Origin: Streptococcus salivarius
GTDB taxonomy: Bacteria > Bacillota > Bacilli > Lactobacillales > Streptococcaceae
Assembly (NCBI RefSeq): GCF_002094975.1
Contig: NZ_CP015283.1
Coordinates: 2,135,794-2,199,793 of the forward strand
Length of the DNA stretch: 64,000 nucleotides
Reading direction: 5' to 3'
A program made the translations under genes and the position numbers. The notes below the pieces were generated by a model that was given only the letters and a program-made list of their open reading frames with translations, did not search any database and was not told where the DNA came from. The number at the start of each line of letters is the position of its first letter. Positions within the stretch are counted from its first letter, which is position 1. Positions 15,261-64,000 of the stretch are shown here, one piece after another.

Positions 15261-15299
15261 ATAAACTCGAGGTGGATTTTTTAATAGATTCTGTCAAAA

Positions 15300-15452
15300 A
15301 ATGGACCGTTCAAGCTTTAGCTCCGCAAGGCGATGAAATGAGCTTAGTCTTGACCTTGGCGATCAGGACTGTTGACCAACGAGTAGTGTCTCCACTGCTT
15401 TGCGGTAGTCATCCGTATCCTTGTGGTAGCCTCACCTACCGTATGTCACCGA
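15300..15452 (-). promoter_or_regulatory. M-box (ykoK) magnesium riboswitch
   Basis: The minus strand carries TAGGTGAGGCTACCACA at 15438-15422, then GGATACGG, GGTCAACAGTCC and GGAGCTAAAGC, in the order and spacing of the ykoK/M-box aptamer. Mg2+ binding to this RNA is known to favour a downstream terminator, here at 15222-15260. Its place 230 bases before mgtA supports the call. I did not fold it by computer. Confidence 0.88.
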
Positions 15453-44486: not shown

Positions 44487-44658
44487 TAGTAGTTTTACCT
44501 CCGTTTTTATTTTTGGGCTAGGCACAAAAAAATCGTACCTAAACCTAGACACGAAAGTACAATACGTTCCAAAAAAATAGTTACGTTTTGTGCCTCGGTT
44601 GGATGTTTATGAGTTTAACTCCCCAACTGTCTTAGGTCAGTTTTTTCAAACCTCATTT
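44487..44658 (-). promoter_or_regulatory. L10 (rplJL) autoregulatory leader
   Basis: The 170-base leader between promoter and rplJ has paired segments (GGACTGACC-like, AGTTGGGGAGTT, GAGGCACAAAACG) in the place of the known L10 leader of Firmicutes. I assign it mainly by position. Confidence 0.65.
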
Positions 44659-51600: not shown

Positions 51601-54600
51601 AATTCTCTCCTTTTAGCAGGGCAAAGAAACAAATCAGTTCAAAATCATCCATCCCTTCAATGCTGGTATTCATCAAATTAACCGTTCCAAAATTGAAGAG
51701 TGCATCCATAGTAGACAGTTGATCCTGTTCCATCAGTTGCTCAATGGCCTGCTGTAATAGCTTGGAATATCCAGACATCTCTTTCCCGTCTTTTGTTTGA
51801 CGGTTATACTGATTCACCAGAGATTGCAATGGCTGGTTCTTTCCTCTACATAGACTCCCCAGGAGATCTAAAATCTTCTTACTCTCTTCTGGAGAAACCA
51901 CTAAATCTCCTGCACTATTTACATAGAGGATATAATATGGATGAAGTTGATTCTTCTGATTCTTACCTCTAAGTTCGTCTTTATTTTTTAAAACAAAGAT
52001 TGCTCCTTCAGCTTCCTTATTCTCAACCGACAAGATGGCTTGCAGACCTTTTGGTACTTTTTCCAATTCAGGATGGCTTTCAAGATACTTCAGAAAATCC
52101 ATTCGATAGTCTTCCAATCCTAGATCCATAATAGAAATTCCTTCACTCATCTCTTCTAAGTCGACAACTTCATTTCTAAGACGCTCTAGTTGTTTCTTCC
52201 GATAGTTATTGTCTTCTATCTCTTCACTAGAAAGAACATTATCATCTGCGGTAGATGTGAGAACGGATATTTTCATGCGTGATTCAACACGAGATTTAAG
52301 ATCGATATACTCATCTAACTCGATATTTGGCCAAAAGTTTACAAGCTGAATAAACTTATTTTTGCTACCAATTCGATCCACGCGGCCAAAGCGTTGAATG
52401 ATTCGAACAGGATTCCAATGGATATCATAATTGACCATCATGTCTGCATCCTGCAGGTTTTGTCCTTCAGAAATAACATCTGTTGCAATCAAGACATCAA
52501 TCTCTCTTTGATCATCCGGAAATAGGAGATTCCTATCTTTTGATTGTGGTGAAAAATAGGTCAAAAGGGAATTAAGGTCTCGATGGTTTGTTTTTAGCGT
52601 TGTTTCAAATCCTTTTGTACCTGAAATTTGTGCCGTATGAAGTCCGTATTTATCTAGTACATATTGGCTAATATGTTTATAGAGATAGTTAGTGGTCGTC
52701 GCAAAGGCAGAAAAGATAATGAGTTTATTATTGCCTGCATTGATTGGATGAGTCATTTTTTCATCGATCAACCGATAGAGTGTTTGCAATTTTTTATCTT
52801 CTGTAGGAGTGATTTGATCGATCAGTTCTTCTAATTCCAGCAAAATTGCTTGATCTTTCTCTAACTCTAATTTCCAACTGCGATAGTCCATATCTTTCAA
52901 AGCAATTCTATTCTTCTTCCCGATAAAGACATCCAAGTTGCTATCTTCTATATCGAAATCATCTTCATTTAAGACAGGCACTCCAGATAAAGCATCTAAA
53001 CCAGTTTGCTCATATGTTGAAATAGCTTTTAAAGTCTCATCTACATACGATTTAACGACATCGATCAAGGTATAACGAAAAGCTGCTACAGAACTTTCTA
53101 AGCGTTTAAGCAGATTGATCATCATCAGCTTTTTCATCCCCGACTCACGACCCAGTTGAGTAAGGTTGGCTTTATTCCCTGCTAATGTTATTTCGTATTT
53201 CTCACGCTTTGAGGGATAGATATAAAGTGAAGGTTGGTAAATGGTTAACTGTAACTGATCTAACAACTGGTATAACTTTTTATAGGTCACATCTAGATTC
53301 GACACTGTCAAATCAGGCTCAAAGTTTCTTGGTTTCAGACGTTCTGGAAAATCTCCAATCGCTTTTCGATCATAAAATTCTCGGATGTGTTTACGACTAC
53401 GAGCAATCGTCACACTATCCAGAATTTTAAAGAAATCAAAGTCTAAGGTCGATAATAGTTTATCTGTCGTTCGCTCTTCAGCTGGTAAGTCTGCCCATTT
53501 GTTATAGGCCAACTGAGCATTCCGAAAAATATCATTAATGGACGACTGTGTATCTAATTTTCCATCTATCTGCTCTACATCCCCTTCATAGGCTAAAGCG
53601 ATCTGATTTTTCAGATCATTAAAGCGATTATTAACTGGAGTAGCTGATAACATCAGTACCTTAGTAGGAACACCTGACTTGATAATTCGATTCATTAATC
53701 GACTATAACGATTTTCACGTCCCTCCGCTTGATCACTTTCGCTGGATCCACCATTACGGAAATTATGAGATTCATCAATAACCACTAAGTCATAATTCTC
53801 CCATTTATTTAATGCAAGGTCTATTCCATTTGAAATCCCTTTATCTCGACTTAAATCGGTATGATATAAAACATCGTAAATGAGATGACGGTCATAAATA
53901 GGGTTGTTGACATAGTCATGTCGGTACATGTTCCAGTTGTTTTCTAACTTTTTCGGACACAAGACTAAAATTCGTTTCCCACGATAGGCATAGTAAGTCA
54001 TGACAGCTAAAGCTGTAAAAGTTTTTCCTAACCCCACTGAATCTGCTAAAATACAGCCGTTATACTTTTCAAGTTTTGAAATGATTGATTTTACAGCATC
54101 TTGTTGGAAATCATAAAGAAGATTCCACAACTTGGTATTTTTATAGCCCACCTGTTCATTTGGGGTATAGTCATCATTGATATCCTCAAGAAATTCACTA
54201 AAGAGATTATAGAGCATGACATAGTAGAGAAATTCAGGTGAGTGTTCTTTATGAGCTAAATTGAGAGTTTCCAAGAACTCTTCTGTCACATCCCGAAAAT
54301 ACTCATCATTTTGCCAGAGGCTATCAAATTCATCTAGATAGGATAAACTTAATGGAGCATGATAGATATGCCGTGTGGTTTTGAACAACGAAGAATCATA
54401 GCCTAATTCTTTTCGATCGAAGTTTTTGAGGCGATCCACAGCGACAGCATCATCATCCGTTTCTATCCGCATACCATTTGGCATATCATCGGTTTCAATG
54501 TTGATAGATTTAAAACGAGCCTTTTTCCTAATCCATTCAGCACATTCTCTCGCAATTGCTTTTTGGGTTAATTCATTCATTAACTTCAGCTCATAACGTC

Positions 54601-55105: not shown

Positions 55106-56221
55106 AATACTTCCCATGGCTACGCCAAGAGAGACTGTCGCTTTAAGGTCCATGGCATTCCCGATTGGTCCAACGACTAGGGCCGCAAAGCCCAGCCCAA
55201 TCAAACCTCCCAGAATGGTCAAAACCATGGACTCAATCAGAAACTGTGTCAAGATTTTACGGCGTGTGGCTCCTAAAGCCTTACGAAGACCAATCTCTCG
55301 TGTCCGCTCAGTTACCGAAACTAGCATGATATTCATAACACCGATTCCACCAACTAAGAGTGAAATCCCAGCAATAGCTCCGACAACGGTGGTAATGGTT
55401 CCAAAGATCGTGTTCACCTGATCTAAGGTCGAGCTCATATCTGCTGCCTTGTACTCCCCGTTATCATCTTGGGCCAACTGGGTCAAGCGTTTGGCAGCAT
55501 CCTTAGCGACACTACTACTATTTTTCACATCGGTCACATGGAAAAAAATCTGGCCAATAGCATCAGTGTTATTTTCAGCTGCTAACTGGGTATTGGCCAC
55601 AAGAGCTGTTCCAATTTCACCATAGGCACCGATTGCGGTGTCTTTATTCTTATAAACACCAATCACACGATAATCATTGTTACCAATAGTAACCACTTGG
55701 TTAAGGGCATCCTCATTCGTCTCAAAGAGTTTTTTAGCCACCATCTGATCAATGACAATGACGCGTGAAAAGTTTTTATAATCATTGTCTTGCAAGGAAC
55801 GTCCTGTCAACATCTCTAACTTTTTAGCTTTAAAATAGCCCTGACTGGCACCTGTGATATTAACATTCTTCACAGTCTTTTTTTGGAGGGAGATAGAAGA
55901 AGTTAGGCTGTTAGTCACAAAATAACTATCAATACCAGGCGTCTGCCTAGCCACTTGCTCCAACCAAACTTCTTTAACCGGTTTGGTCGGTTGTGACAAG
56001 TCCGCATAGGCAGGATCTATCTCCTCACCCTTGGCTTCATAGTAGACTTGAACGGTATCCTTATCACCGGTCACACTATCGGTAACACTCTGACGCATCC
56101 CATTTCCTAGCCCCATGATAAGTACTACCGCAGCAACACCAATGATAATCCCCAACATGGTCAGGAAGGACCGCATCTTGTGTGAACGAATAGAACTAAG
56201 AGCAAATTTCCAATTTTCCAT
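55013..56221 (-). CDS. MacB-type ABC transporter permease
   Basis: A 402-residue permease with an N-terminal span (SHKMRSFLTMLGIIIGVAAVV), a large extracellular domain (residues ~50-270) and three C-terminal spans with ERTREIGLRKALGATRR, the FtsX-like coupling motif. It works with the adaptor and ATPase genes upstream as a tripartite-like efflux or peptide-export unit (YknXYZ type). The last 94 bases of the gene form the right copy of the direct repeat that bounds the restriction island; the gene itself is intact. Confidence 0.92.
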   Translation of the reverse strand: MENWKFALSSIRSHKMRSFLTMLGIIIGVAAVVLIMGLGNGMRQSVTDSVTGDKDTVQVYYEAKGEEIDPAYADLSQPTKPVKEVWLEQVARQTPGIDSYFVTNSLTSSISLQKKTVKNVNITGASQGYFKAKKLEMLTGRSLQDNDYKNFSRVIVIDQMVAKKLFETNEDALNQVVTIGNNDYRVIGVYKNKDTAIGAYGEIGTALVANTQLAAENNTDAIGQIFFHVTDVKNSSSVAKDAAKRLTQLAQDDNGEYKAADMSSTLDQVNTIFGTITTVVGAIAGISLLVGGIGVMNIMLVSVTERTREIGLRKALGATRRKILTQFLIESMVLTILGGLIGLGFAALVVGPIGNAMDLKATVSLGVAMGSIAFSAAVGIIFGLLPANKASKLDPIEALRYD

Positions 56222-56230
56222 TCTTACCTC

Positions 56231-56935
56231 CTAGTCTATCCGAACGCTGTCCGTTGTGTCTTGGGTGATTTCCCCATCACGGATGACAATCTTACGTCGG
56301 GCATAATCCGCAATCTCAGGTTCATGGGTAACCATGACAATGGTCTTCCCTTCTCGGTTTAGCTGGGTTAAGAGATCCATAATCTGGGTTCCTGTCTTGG
56401 TATCAAGCGCACCCGTAGGTTCATCCGCCAAAATGATTGCTGGATCGTTAGACAGTGCACGCGCAATAGCCACCCTTTGCTTCTGTCCACCAGACAGCTC
56501 TGACGGCAAATGATGGCTGCGGTCTGACAAGCCGACTTTTTCCAAGAATTGTTGTGACCTTTGCTTACGTTCACGTGGAGATTTCCCCGCATAAATCAGG
56601 GGAAGCTCTACATTCTTTTGGGCACTTAACTTTGGCAAGAGAAAAAACTGCTGAAAGATAAAGCCAATCTGGTCATTTCTTACCTTGGCCAAGCGGTTTT
56701 CAGAGAGCTCAGCTACATTCTCTCCCTCGAGTTGATAGGAACCTGTAGTCGGTTGATCAAGAAGGCCGATAATATTCATGAGGGTTGATTTTCCTGAACC
56801 AGAAGGGCCCATGATTGCCACGAAGTCACCTTCTTCAACTGATAAGTCAATCCCCTTAAGGACCTGCAAGGACTCCTGACCATTTTTGAAAGACTTGGTG
56901 ATGCCTTTTAAGACCATAAGTGCTGGCTTAGTCAC
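56231..56935 (-). CDS. MacB/LolD-type ABC transporter ATPase
   Basis: A 234-residue ATPase with Walker A GPSGSGKSTLMNIIG, Q-loop IFQQFFLLP, signature ELSGGQKQRVAIARAL, Walker B ILADEPTGALD and the H-loop MVTHEPE. All catalytic residues are present. It overlaps the adaptor gene by eight bases and precedes the permease by nine, so the three make one operon. Confidence 0.94.
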   Translation of the reverse strand: MTKPALMVLKGITKSFKNGQESLQVLKGIDLSVEEGDFVAIMGPSGSGKSTLMNIIGLLDQPTTGSYQLEGENVAELSENRLAKVRNDQIGFIFQQFFLLPKLSAQKNVELPLIYAGKSPRERKQRSQQFLEKVGLSDRSHHLPSELSGGQKQRVAIARALSNDPAIILADEPTGALDTKTGTQIMDLLTQLNREGKTIVMVTHEPEIADYARRKIVIRDGEITQDTTDSVRID

Positions 56936-59365: not shown

Positions 59366-62300
59366 TTAGATAGCTTCTGTTGTAAAGCTACGGCTTTCAA
59401 GCACACGCACCATAGCATCTGCTGTATCAAGCGCTGTGAAGAGTGGAATTCCAGCTTCAATAGCTGAGCTACGGATAGCTGCTCCGTCTTCGTCATAAGT
59501 ACGTTTGTTACCAACCGTATTGATAATGGCTTGCGCTTTACCTGTACGAACGAGGGCTGGAATGTCATTATCATCATTTTCACCCAATTTGTTAACAAGC
59601 GTTGCGTGAACCCCGTGTTCATTCAAGAACTTAGCAGTTCCTTCAGTCGCGTAGATACCATAACCGATAGCATCGAAACGACGGGCCAAGTCAAGGGCTT
59701 CTTCTTTAGTATCATCATGAATAGTAAAGATAACATTACCAAAGGTTGGCAAGTGGAGGTACGAAGCTTCAAAGGCTTTATAGAGCGCTTTTTCAAGAGT
59801 CGCATCTGTACCCATAACTTCACCAGTTGATTTCATTTCAGGTCCAAGGAGGCTATCTACCTTAGCCAATTTTGTGAATGAGAAGACTGGTGCTTTGACA
59901 TGGACATGGTTACTTTCTGAGTAAAGACCATCTTTGTAACCTTGCTCAGCCAATGATTTACCAAGAATCAAGTTTGTAGCAACTTGAGCCATTGGGATAT
60001 CAGTCACCTTAGACAAGAATGGTACGGTACGACTGGCACGTGGGTTAACCTCGATAACATAGACCGTTTCATCCTTAATAACGAACTGAATGTTCATCAT
60101 ACCGATACAGTTAAGACCAATAGCCAAGCGTTTAGTGTAGTCAGCGATAGTCTCTTGGATTTTCTTAGAAAGGGTTTGTGGTGGGTAAACTGCCATTGAG
60201 TCCCCTGAGTGAACCCCTGCACGTTCGATGTGTTCCATGATACCTGGAATCAAGACATCCTTACCATCAGAGATGGCATCCACTTCACACTCGCGTCCGA
60301 TGATATAGCTATCAACAAGGACTGGGTGGTCTGGACTTGCCTTAACGGCTGTACGCATGTAAGAACGAAGGTCATCTTCATTTTCAACGATTTCCATGGC
60401 ACGTCCACCCAAAACGTATGACGGACGAACAAGAACTGGGAAGCCAATCTTACGAGCTGCTTCAACCGCTTCTTCTTCATTTGTCGCTGTTTGTCCTGGT
60501 GGTTGTGGGATATCAAGGTCTTTAAGGGCTTGTTCAAAGAGGTCAAGGTCAGCAACCTGTGTACCCAAGATTTTCACACCAGCTTTAGATAATGGCTCTG
60601 CCAAGTTGATAGCTGTTTGTCCACCAAACTGAACCACGACACCCTTAGGTTGTTCCAATTCGATAACGTTCATCACGTCTTCGAAAGTCAATGGTTCGAA
60701 GTAAAGTTTATCTGAAACTGAGAAGTCTGTTGAAACTGTCTCAGGGTTAGAGTTCATGATGATAGCTTCGTAACCTGCAGCCTGGATAGCTTTTACAGAG
60801 TGAACTGTCGCATAGTCAAACTCAACCCCTTGCCCGATACGGATAGGACCTGAACCAAGAACGATGACAGATTCTTTATCAGATTTGATTGATTCATTTT
60901 CCCACTCATAAGTTGAGTAGAAATATGGTGTTGATGACTCGAACTCAGCAGCACAGGTATCGACCATCTTGTAAACAGGAACAATATTATTTTCCAAACG
61001 TGTCGCACGAACTTGGTCGGCTGTTTGATTCCAAAGATCAGCAATCTTACGATCAGAGAAACCGTTACGTTTAGCTTCTTTCAGAACATCAACATCGCCT
61101 ACGTGAGTAGCCAATTCTTGTTCCAATTCAAAGAGATGGAGCAATTTATCAAGGAAGAAGATATCAATCTTAGTCAACTCTGACAATTCTTCAATAGTGT
61201 ATCCACGACGGATGGCTTCAGAAAGGTAGAAGAGACGGTCGTCTTGAGCTTTGACAATCTTTTCAACCAAGGCGTCGTCTGTGACGTCCGCAAGCTCAGA
61301 CATTTCATTGTGGTAAACACCGATTTCAAGTGAACGGCAGGCTTTAAGAAGTGACTCTTCGATGTTACGACCGATAGCCATAACTTCACCTGTTGCTTTC
61401 ATCTGAGTACCAAGGCGACGTTCACCGTGTTCAAATTTATCAAATGGGAAACGTGGAATCTTAGCAACCACATAGTCAAGAGCTGGTTCAAACATAGCGT
61501 AAGTTGTACCAGTGACTGGGTTAATCATTTCATCAAGTGTCAAACCAACAGCGATCTTGGCTGCTAATTTGGCGATTGGGTAACCAGTTGCTTTTGAGGC
61601 AAGGGCTGATGAACGTGATACACGAGGGTTTACTTCGATAACATAGTACTTGAAGCTATTAGGGTCAAGAGCCAACTGTACGTTACAGCCACCCTCAATT
61701 TTAAGGGCACGGATAATCTTCAAGCTGGCATCACGAAGCATTTGGTTTTCAATATCTGACAAGGTTTGCGTTGGGGCAAATACGATTGAGTCCCCTGTGT
61801 GAATACCAACTGGGTCAAAGTTTTCCATGTTACATACCACAAGAGCATTGTCTGCGGCATCACGCATAACTTCGTATTCGATTTCCTTGAAACCAGCGAT
61901 AGAACGCTCAATCAAACATTGTGTTACTGGTGACAATTTCAAGCCATTTTCAGCGATTTCACGAAGTTCTTCTTCGTTGGCACACATACCACCACCAGTA
62001 CCACCAAGGGTAAAGGCAGGACGCACGATAACTGGGTAACCAATTTCTGACGCAAAGGCAACTGCTTCTTCAACTGTATTGACGATTTCAGATTCTGGAA
62101 TTGGTTGTTCCAAATCTTCCATCAATTGTTTGAAGAGGTCACGGTCTTCGGCTTGGTCAATGGCAGACAATTTTGTTCCCAAAAGCTCTACTCCAAGCTC
62201 TTCAAGAATACCAGCTTTTGACAATTCCATTGCCATGTTCAAACCAGTTTGTCCACCAAGTGTTGGCAAGAGAGCATCAGGACGCTCTTTACGAAGAATA

Positions 62301-62527
62301 CGTGTGACAAATTCAAGCGTAATTGGTTCAATGTAAACCTTGTCTGCGATTTCTTTATCAGTCATGATTGTCGCAGGGTTAGAGTTGACAAGGACAACAC
62401 TGTAACCTTCTTCTTTCAAGGCCAAGCAGGCTTGCGTACCAGCATAGTCGAACTCAGCAGCCTGACCGATGATGATAGGACCAGACCCGATAACCATAAT
62501 TTTTTTAATATCAGAACGTTTAGGCAT
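59366..62527 (-). CDS. carB: carbamoyl-phosphate synthase large chain
   Basis: A 1053-residue enzyme that makes carbamoyl phosphate from bicarbonate, ATP and ammonia supplied by CarA, for pyrimidine and arginine synthesis. It begins [20 protein letters not shown] and has two homologous ATP-grasp halves ([18 protein letters not shown] and [18 protein letters not shown]), the ammonia tunnel and a C-terminal regulatory MGS-like domain. The start codon is preceded by no ribosome site at normal distance: the AAAGGAG lies 132 bases upstream, with a folded element between. Start is fixed by family alignment. Confidence 0.97.
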
Positions 62528-62534
62528 AATTTAT

Positions 62535-62657
62535 GATACAAAGCCCGTTAAGGACCCAGTGAAAATAGGAAACGTGACGACGACGCCCAAGCGTCTAGTC
62601 ACCGTTTATCTTTTTCACATAGTCCTTAGGGCGTGTTCACTTCCGTGAACCTGTATC
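62535..62657 (-). other. structured element between SD and start codon of carB
   Basis: A 123-base RNA element with nested stems. From outside in: GATACA/TGTATC, GCCC/GGGC, TAAGGAC/GTCCTTA, GTGAAAA/TTTTCAC, GTGAC/GTCAC and GACGC/GCGTC; a side hairpin GTTCAC ggaa GTGAAC lies after the first stem. The carB ribosome site ends two bases before it and the ATG is seven bases after it, so folding would leave a nine-base spacing. It is related to the element before carA. Confidence 0.72.
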
Positions 62658-62659
62658 TT

Positions 62660-62691
62660 CTCCTTTCTATTTGACAACTCTCTGGTTGTCA
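62660..62691 (-). promoter_or_regulatory. carB ribosome site and a CCAGAGAG hairpin
   Basis: AAAGGAG lies at 62660-62666. Just upstream, TGACAAC cagaga GTTGTCA (62672-62691) is a 7-bp hairpin whose loop CCAGAGAG is like the PyrR-binding loop of pyr attenuators. The rest of the carA-carB gap (62692-62756) contains a TGGGG/CCCCA pairing and little else. Confidence 0.55.
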
Positions 62692-62756
62692 TTAAATAAG
62701 GTAGTAGACTGGGGCGAACAAGAGTCATCCCCACTATAGTCACTAGACAGTTGCAA

Positions 62757-63845
62757 TTAACGACGTGCTTTTTCAGCTTGGAAAGCATCAATCAATTCCA
62801 AAAACTCATCAAAGAGATAGCTAGCATCGTGTGGACCAGGAGCTGCATCTGGGTGGAATTGCACTGAAAATGCTGGGAAGTCACGGTGACGAACACCTTC
62901 AACTGACTTATCGTTAATTTCTTCGTGTGTTACCATGAGGCAATCTGGAAGTGACTCACGGTCAATAGCATAACCATGGTTTTGGCTGGTAAAGTCAACA
63001 CGACCAGTCGCAATTTCACGAACCGCGTGGTTAAATCCACGGTGACCGAACTTCATCTTGTAGGCCTTGGCACCATTAGCCAAACTAAACAACTGGTGAC
63101 CCATACAAATACCAAAGATTGGAATTTTACCTTGGATGCCACGAATCATATCAAGTGCATACGGTACATCTTCAGGGTTACCTGGACCATTTGACAACAT
63201 CACACCATCTGGATTAAGGTGGAGAATTTCTTCAGCAGTGATATCATGTGGCACAACAGTCACGTTACAATCACGTTTTGAAAACTCACGCAAGATAGAG
63301 TGCTTGAGACCAAAGTCAACCAAAACGATATTTTTACCAACACCTGGTGCTGGGTAGGCTGTCTTAGTTGATACCTGCTCAATATTATTCGTTGGCAAAA
63401 CAGTCGCACGCAATTGATCTTGCAAGTGCTCGATACTGTCACCAGGGCTGGCCAAAGTGGCTTTCATGGTACCGTGTTGACGGATAATCTTAGTCAAGGC
63501 ACGTGTATCAATACCAGAGATACCAGGGATGTTTTTCGCCTTCAAAAACTCATCCAAGGTCATTTGGTTACGCCAGTTGCTGGCACGACGGCTAGCCTCT
63601 GACACAACGACACCCTTAGTCGTTGGCTTAATTGACTCATAGTCGTCACGGTTAACACCGTAGTTACCAACAAGTGGATAAGTAAAAGTCAAAATTTGAC
63701 CATTGTAAGACTGGTCTGTGATAGATTCTTGATAACCTGTCATACCAGTATTAAAGACGATTTCACCCGTCACATCCACATCAGCACCGAAGGCCTGACC
63801 TTCAAAAATAGTGCCGTCTTCCAAAATAAGTAAACGTTTTGCCAT
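62757..63845 (-). CDS. carA: carbamoyl-phosphate synthase small chain
   Basis: A 362-residue glutamine amidotransferase that supplies ammonia to CarB. It starts [19 protein letters not shown] and ends in a class I GATase domain with the nucleophile in [15 protein letters not shown] and the [10 protein letters not shown] segment with the catalytic histidine. Length is normal. It precedes carB after a 229-base gap, long for this pair. pyrB is expected upstream but lies outside the window. Confidence 0.96.
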
Positions 63846-63870
63846 TATAGTAAATTGTTCCTTTCACTAA

Positions 63871-64000
63871 GATACAAAGGGCGTTAAACATCTGATTGAA
63901 AAGCAAATCCAACAGAGAAGCTCTAGCCTCTAGGAAGATTTGTCTCTTTTCAAAGATTTAGCCCATGTTCTTTTTCGTCTGATTCTCTCAGGAATCGGTT
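63871..64000 (-). other. structured element before carA (cut by window edge)
   Basis: On the plus strand it opens with GATACAAAGGGCGTTAA, against GATACAAAGCCCGTTAA before carB, and later has TTTAGCCCATGTTC against CTTAGGGCGTGTTC. The outer GC stem has changed on both arms, so pairing is kept. TTGAAAAGCAAATC and GATTTG..CTTTTCAA make the next stem. A side hairpin GATTC/GAATC follows. The partner of GATACA lies beyond 64000. Confidence 0.65.

Follow-up and report, generated by a model that had tools for sequence, protein, structure and literature searches.

We examined the carA-carB region in a window of 64,000 nt (the whole stretch of Streptococcus salivarius DNA that was analysed), where the Shine-Dalgarno (SD) motif of carB is separated from the start codon by a folded element. 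The features are given below in the order in which they are transcribed; R1 is the covariance model described further on.

63869-63970, minus strand: diverged second copy of the repeat, before carA and 5' of an ordinary SD, GAAAGGA (R1, 73 bits, E 2.5e-17)
62757-63845, minus strand: carA (Pfam CPSase_sm_chain and GATase)
62673-62690, minus strand: hairpin GACAACCAGAGAGTTGTC, directly 5' of the carB SD (sequence)
62660-62666, minus strand: SD of carB, AAAGGAG, 5' of the folded element (sequence)
62535-62657, minus strand: folded element of 123 nt closed by GATACA/TGTATC (sequence and predicted fold)
62635-62650, minus strand: side hairpin GTTCAC-CGGA..GTGAAC, which captures the 5' GAAC of the core and gives a three-way junction (predicted fold)
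62533-62638, minus strand: core repeat GAACACG...TGTATCAT (R1, 108 bits, E 6e-27; this copy belongs to the R1 seed)
62525-62534, minus strand: 7-nt linker (62528-62534) and carB ATG (62525-62527) (sequence)
59366-62527, minus strand: carB (Pfam CPSase_L domains)

The order AAAGGAG, 123-base element, seven bases and ATG is, base for base in the sequence, the layout described in the original prediction. The distance from SD to ATG is 132 nt in linear sequence and 2 + 7 = 9 nt when the element is taken as a point, the same nine-base spacing that had been claimed for the gap without the element. The carB linker 3' of the element contains no SD motif, so no SD is nearer to the start than the distant one. 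The real carB start is very probably the ATG at 62525-62527, because the CPSase large-chain domains are in frame from residue 7 and the N-terminus recurs in relatives. The region 62528-62670 has a predicted folding energy of -55.4 kcal/mol, compared with -31.9 (sd 3.8) in 200 dinucleotide shuffles, none of which was as low (z -6.1). The nested stems and the side hairpin noticed earlier by eye were recovered in the predicted fold, which is a single closed domain made of a nested series of stems and one 6-bp side hairpin; the length of this side hairpin varies widely across carB leaders. The original prediction had also pointed to a promoter inside the gap as a possible source of a new ribosome site, and a search of 62450-62860 on the coding strand found nothing resembling a sigma-70 promoter. 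Hairpins similar to GACAACCAGAGAGTTGTC, but with differing stem letters, recur in several carB leaders, both those that carry the element and those that lack it. We take GACAACCAGAGAGTTGTC to resemble the PyrR binding loop, and through it carB may be under separate translational control by PyrR; the Rfam search gave no PyrR model match for it at E up to 10. At three other loci (L071-L073) carA itself is arranged as SD-element-ATG.

The carB element belongs to a repeat family. A blastn search with the carB-gap region gave four matches in its own genome at E ≤ 1, and at E ≤ 0.01 the 143-base region matched 181 of the 197 genus genomes. A seed alignment of 35 diverse cores (A1) was folded to a consensus by RNAalifold, and R1 was built from the relatives. 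The A1 consensus contains 29 pairs, of which 21 show compensating double changes, and 93.9% of positions in these pairs are paired; on each of the five measures all 500 shuffles fell short, and with the partners slid against each other 34-53% were paired. The closing helix covaries as well: position 5 of GAAC[A/C/U] changes together with [U/G/A]GUAUC, with both sides changed in 7 of 35 cores and the position unpaired in 3 of 35. The internal loops are conserved across the seed, with the loop letters AAAAAGA/CCTATTTT.

R1 found 14 matches in the S. salivarius genome, including the carB element and the copy before carA, and the GC content of these copies is 36-52%. In a search of 148 genomes of the order, 45 had matches at E ≤ 1e-4, consisting of 20 Streptococcus genomes and 25 from nine other genera; among the non-Streptococcus copies, the 23 that were inspected by eye all lay outside an SD-AUG gap. 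Long tandem arrays of diverged relatives, with a period of about 121, were seen in another Lactobacillales genus (G205:C1:3175-4143, 52040-52744 and 55934-56642). The element pattern was found in 63 named records, 62 of them Streptococcus, and in five records of viral contigs; five matches in phage records lay at the carB end of the query and took in 15-20% of it. A pattern match in a Halanaerobiales MAG (L234), which lacks an SD motif and has a frame of 6 codons, was set aside as probably due to chance.

For the placement of the repeat relative to genes, 203 distinct copies (core plus 30-nt flanks) were taken from R1 alignments, the sources being carB-like blast hits and the matches listed for four genomes; this selection is independent of start codons. 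Among the 196 copies with enough downstream flank, 72 lie 1-10 nt before an ATG that opens at least 40 codons, compared with 5 of 200 on the antisense side (Fisher p about 7e-20, which is overstated since related copies were treated as independent). carB accounts for 22 of the 72; with carB starts excluded, 50 remain among the 171 copies that have both flanks. Of the 72 start-adjacent copies, 68 carry an SD motif no more than 90 nt 5' of the core, as do 24 of the 131 others, and the remaining four start-adjacent copies have no listed SD motif within that distance. By strict counting the SD-element-ATG order holds for 8 of 14 copies in the S. salivarius genome and for 5 of 26, 10 of 25 and 6 of 17 in the other three genomes. 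A ninth S. salivarius case, a methyltransferase gene (L079), has the SD AGGAAGGA, which is outside the motif list.

Addition of loci found with a pattern that demands an ATG, a biased sample, brought the collection to 121 SD-class and 149 other distinct cores. Grouped by start peptide, 118 of the 121 SD-class cores fall into 29 gene groups. The ten groups tested were confirmed by NCBIfam as deoD, purB, pheT, dnaJ, purN, uvrA, thrS, dnaK, parC and prmA (S. pneumoniae 19F record); from their start peptides we take further groups to be alaS, prfA, groEL, glmM, hisA, proS, nusA and so on. Beyond the single locus of the original prediction, the arrangement recurs across the genus Streptococcus. Two neighbouring S. 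salivarius genes with the same lipoyl-type N-terminus, MAFEIIMPKLGVDMQEG, have near-identical SD-element-ATG leaders (L084 and L085, C1:1707377 and 1705824).

In the SD class the linear spacing is 108-166 nt (median 132). The SD motif lies exactly 3 nt from the core in 21 of the 121 copies; the other 100 carry a 5' segment of 14-56 nt, which in the examples shown is usually predicted to form a hairpin that captures the 5' strand of the core, as at carB. After removal of the MFE helices the collapsed spacing was 7-12 nt in 51 copies, 13-17 nt in 59 and outside these ranges in 11. Of the 22 carB leaders, 17 collapsed to 9 nt and 20 to 8-10 nt, despite linear spacings of 130-166 nt in which one arm varies; the two leaders that do not fit gave 1 and 12 nt. 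All three carA leaders collapsed to 9 nt. Collapse alone is weak evidence, because shuffled spacers (random 130-mers) collapse as well: the median of means was 13.6 nt for dinucleotide shuffles versus a real median of 10. The real spacers differ from the shuffled ones in stability (z -2.7 to -11.0; 68 copies, 20 shuffles each) and in the constancy of the carB value. In 65 of the 121 copies, a constraint that makes the final C of GUAUC pair cost more than 2 kcal/mol. At carB the fold is thus predicted to shorten the spacing to a functional 9 nt, as in a split ribosome binding site (RBS); family-wide the shortening is less clear.

An alignment of carB leaders only (19 of 35, with the sub-type of L169, L224 and L229 excluded) gave 36 pairs with 96.3% of cells paired and 14 pairs with double changes. 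None of 500 shuffles scored as high, and sliding partners gave 36-49% paired. The closing helix is paired in all 19 aligned leaders, the sole changes being A-U to G-U. If selection acted on the sense RNA only, G-U pairs should exceed A-C mismatches. Counted by cluster, G-U versus A-C was 37 v 25 in the SD class (p 0.08) and 57 v 55 in the free class; counted by site it was 26 v 20 and 29 v 34, respectively, and a first count by cells gave 21 v 11 and 41 v 41. In the carB-only alignment 16 pair columns contain G-U and 3 contain A-C, the structure having been predicted with G-U allowed, and carB on the R1 alignment gave 6 v 2. A G-U excess was dropped as proof of RNA-level selection, being not significant family-wide. 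Because pairing across the family shows no clear G-U preference, the constraint on structure may in part be exerted on DNA, and judging from these sequences strict pairing may be kept at the DNA level by mobility; RNA-level selection is at most hinted at, and for carB only.

Genome G228 contains two identical 105-nt cores (L188 and L189) with unrelated flanks, that is, near-identical copies at unrelated loci as looked for in MITE-like elements; because the flanks are unrelated, the mobile unit can be delimited as about GAAC...TATCTTA. Tandem arrays of the repeat occur at several loci. Dispersed identical copies together with tandem arrays indicate a mobile repeat at the level of sequence. No target-site duplication was evident by eye in the carB and uvrA leaders compared or at the G228 pair. 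In double copies (L144, L192, L245, L310 and L317) the first copy ends in GTATCTTA or similar and is followed by GAAAGGA, three bases, the second copy and the ATG. Divergent copy pairs 18 and 45 nt apart were seen at L134 (G228) and L149 (G125).

The original prediction proposed a comparison with relatives that lack the element, and such relatives were found. Thirty genus genomes were chosen for having no or weak blast hits, and 16 of them gave a carB match. In 12 of the 16 the element is absent and, by eye, an SD-like motif lies within about 14 nt of the ATG. Three of the remaining carB leaders (L158, L169 and L170) have R1 matches; the leader of L165 resembles a diverged copy that R1 does not support. 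The upstream hairpin is kept at L160-L162 and is followed by AAATAGGAGAAAATA-ATG or nearly so. Before the carB ATG of L159 stands AAAGGATTTGTATCATCATT-ATG, i.e., an SD and then the apparent last bases of the repeat, and this AAAGGATTTGTATCATCATT may be a deletion remnant of the 3' end of the element. L169, L224 and L229 carry another sub-type of the repeat at the same carB site. For uvrA, 22 leaders out of 30 loci were read, with the element before the ATG in 6 (SD visible in 5) and absent in 16. The earlier idea of a small mobile unit that landed before carB and is tolerated on account of its fold agrees well with the dispersed family, the identical cores at unrelated sites, the tandem arrays and the element-free carB genes.

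We think it likely that this small structured mobile repeat (core of about 106 nt), many copies of which lie in the SD-AUG gap, is bridged there by the 30S subunit. The transcript would fold, and at carB the fold would be a closed domain in which the 3' strand, UGUAUC, stops a few nt short of the AUG. The 30S subunit would base-pair with the far SD while keeping the AUG in its P site, with the fold protruding as a side domain. In this way the streptococcal ribosome probably initiates across a folded RNA of more than 100 bases at carB and at many housekeeping genes. Ribosomes crossing a structured spacer, with phage T4 as the parallel, had been proposed for carB and this is still the best mechanism, now with recurrence at about 30 genes. 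The arrangement, its recurrence, the covariation, the dispersal and the element-free sites are read directly from the sequences, and use of the distant SD across the fold in vivo is the step that we infer.

The main rivals are initiation on leaderless mRNA and a repeat that is simply tolerated. In the first, TATCTT/TATCAT at the 3' end of the element might serve as a -10 box, or the RNA might be cleaved beside the AUG, so that translation begins on a leaderless or near-leaderless mRNA and the SD is unneeded. At carB TATCAT is -10-like and at a plausible distance, and the rival is a real one because streptococci possess and translate leaderless genes: leaderless transcripts are described for 9% of the operons of S. 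pneumoniae D39, one such gene being efficiently translated (PMC6212727), and for 8% of S. agalactiae mRNAs (PMC4448216). However, the coding strand around the carB gap has no promoter-like site in the region searched, the ATGs of purN, prmA and most dnaJ genes lie 1-2 nt past the core, too close for a transcript start at the A, and leaderless starts would not need the SD motif that accompanies nearly all start-adjacent copies and stands at a fixed 3 nt in a part of the SD class. We regard leaderless initiation as rather improbable. A neutral mobile repeat has a somewhat better chance, although we still consider it unlikely. Its arms would be kept at the DNA level, as a transposition substrate or by hairpin-templated repair, and copies between SD and AUG would be tolerated with translation poor or coupled. 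The near equality of G-U and A-C in free copies, the identical dispersed cores and the arrays in other Lactobacillales are what such a repeat should leave behind; the start-codon enrichment far above the antisense side, the occurrence at genes that presumably depend on good expression (pheT, thrS, dnaK and parC) and the lean of carB to G-U are not, and repair of the arms should have erased the internal loops that are conserved across the seed.

The element might instead be a regulatory RNA switch, in which the closing helix has its 5' strand in common with the side hairpin and a protein, an RNA or temperature alters the effective SD-AUG spacing. The 5' strand of the core does pair with either the upstream arm or its 3' partner in the predicted folds of carB, deoD, purB and thrS, and the conserved loop letters could be read in the same sense. 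Against this, neither a ligand nor a regulator is indicated, the target genes have no one pathway in common and the element has no Rfam family, and a dedicated switch seems to us improbable; that refolding of the 5' strand between hairpin and closing helix regulates output is speculative. Intron-like removal of the element from the mRNA, joining SD to AUG, would give the 9-nt spacing at carB, but the element is of about 106 nt with no Rfam match over it, we know of no splicing architecture that it contains, and we give this reading almost no weight.

Initiation across the fold has a described precedent. In T4 genes 38 and 25, structure cuts the SD-AUG distance from 22 to 5 nt and from 27 to 11 nt; the bridging works, and destabilising changes lower initiation, as described in PMC3014915. 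RNA structure between SD and AUG, predicted in the present case, gives a functional distance in both systems. The streptococcal element would work like these split sites, but it is a dispersed repeat found genus-wide at about 30 genes, with a spacer several times longer (108-166 nt), and common ancestry is not implied. Like BOX, RUP and SPRITE of S. pneumoniae and RepSU1, the BOX-type repeat of S. suis, it is a small structured interspersed streptococcal repeat, some of which affect neighbouring genes (PMC3049150). Identity with BOX, RUP or SPRITE was rejected on distribution and composition as described in that source, where these repeats scarcely occur outside S. pneumoniae and S. mitis (apart from the S. 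suis type), RUP and SPRITE have about 28% GC and SPRITE is terminator-like; the carB-type repeat is spread through nearly the whole genus, is richer in GC in its own genome and often lies between SD and AUG. We recognised no prior description of the repeat in the open-licence PMC literature searched or in Rfam, and it may be published elsewhere.

Two other systems invite comparison. EFAR repeats of Enterococcus faecalis are also stem-loop repeats in Lactobacillales, a likeness by description only. The byps (mobile translational bypass elements) of Magnusiomyces mitochondria are mobile hairpin sequences passed over by ribosomes, lying in coding sequence and skipped in elongation, whereas the streptococcal element would by analogy be passed at initiation. 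It is conceivable, and we offer it tentatively, that genus-wide mobile repeats colonised the SD-AUG gap, hidden by their fold from initiating ribosomes, and in essential genes now work as a possibly switchable RBS spacer, an initiation-stage counterpart of bypass. If a fold of 108-166 nt is crossed at dozens of genes, SD-AUG spacing would be a matter of three-dimensional distance and not of nucleotide count, on a scale far above the T4 cases. This could account for some genes annotated without a nearby SD and could correct the prediction of start sites in a genus of medical and industrial importance, and it would provide natural spacing switches with element-free relatives for comparison.

Rfam 15 gave no match over the carB element at gathering or permissive thresholds, and over 20 loci with copies the only match overlapping a copy was a chance-level microRNA (E 0.13, in L101). 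A Srn266 sRNA was found at L003:2596-2704, downstream of deoD and separate from the element. Elsewhere in the window the Rfam search identified a ribosomal protein L10 leader (44518-44654, minus strand) and an M-box magnesium riboswitch (15297-15450, minus strand).
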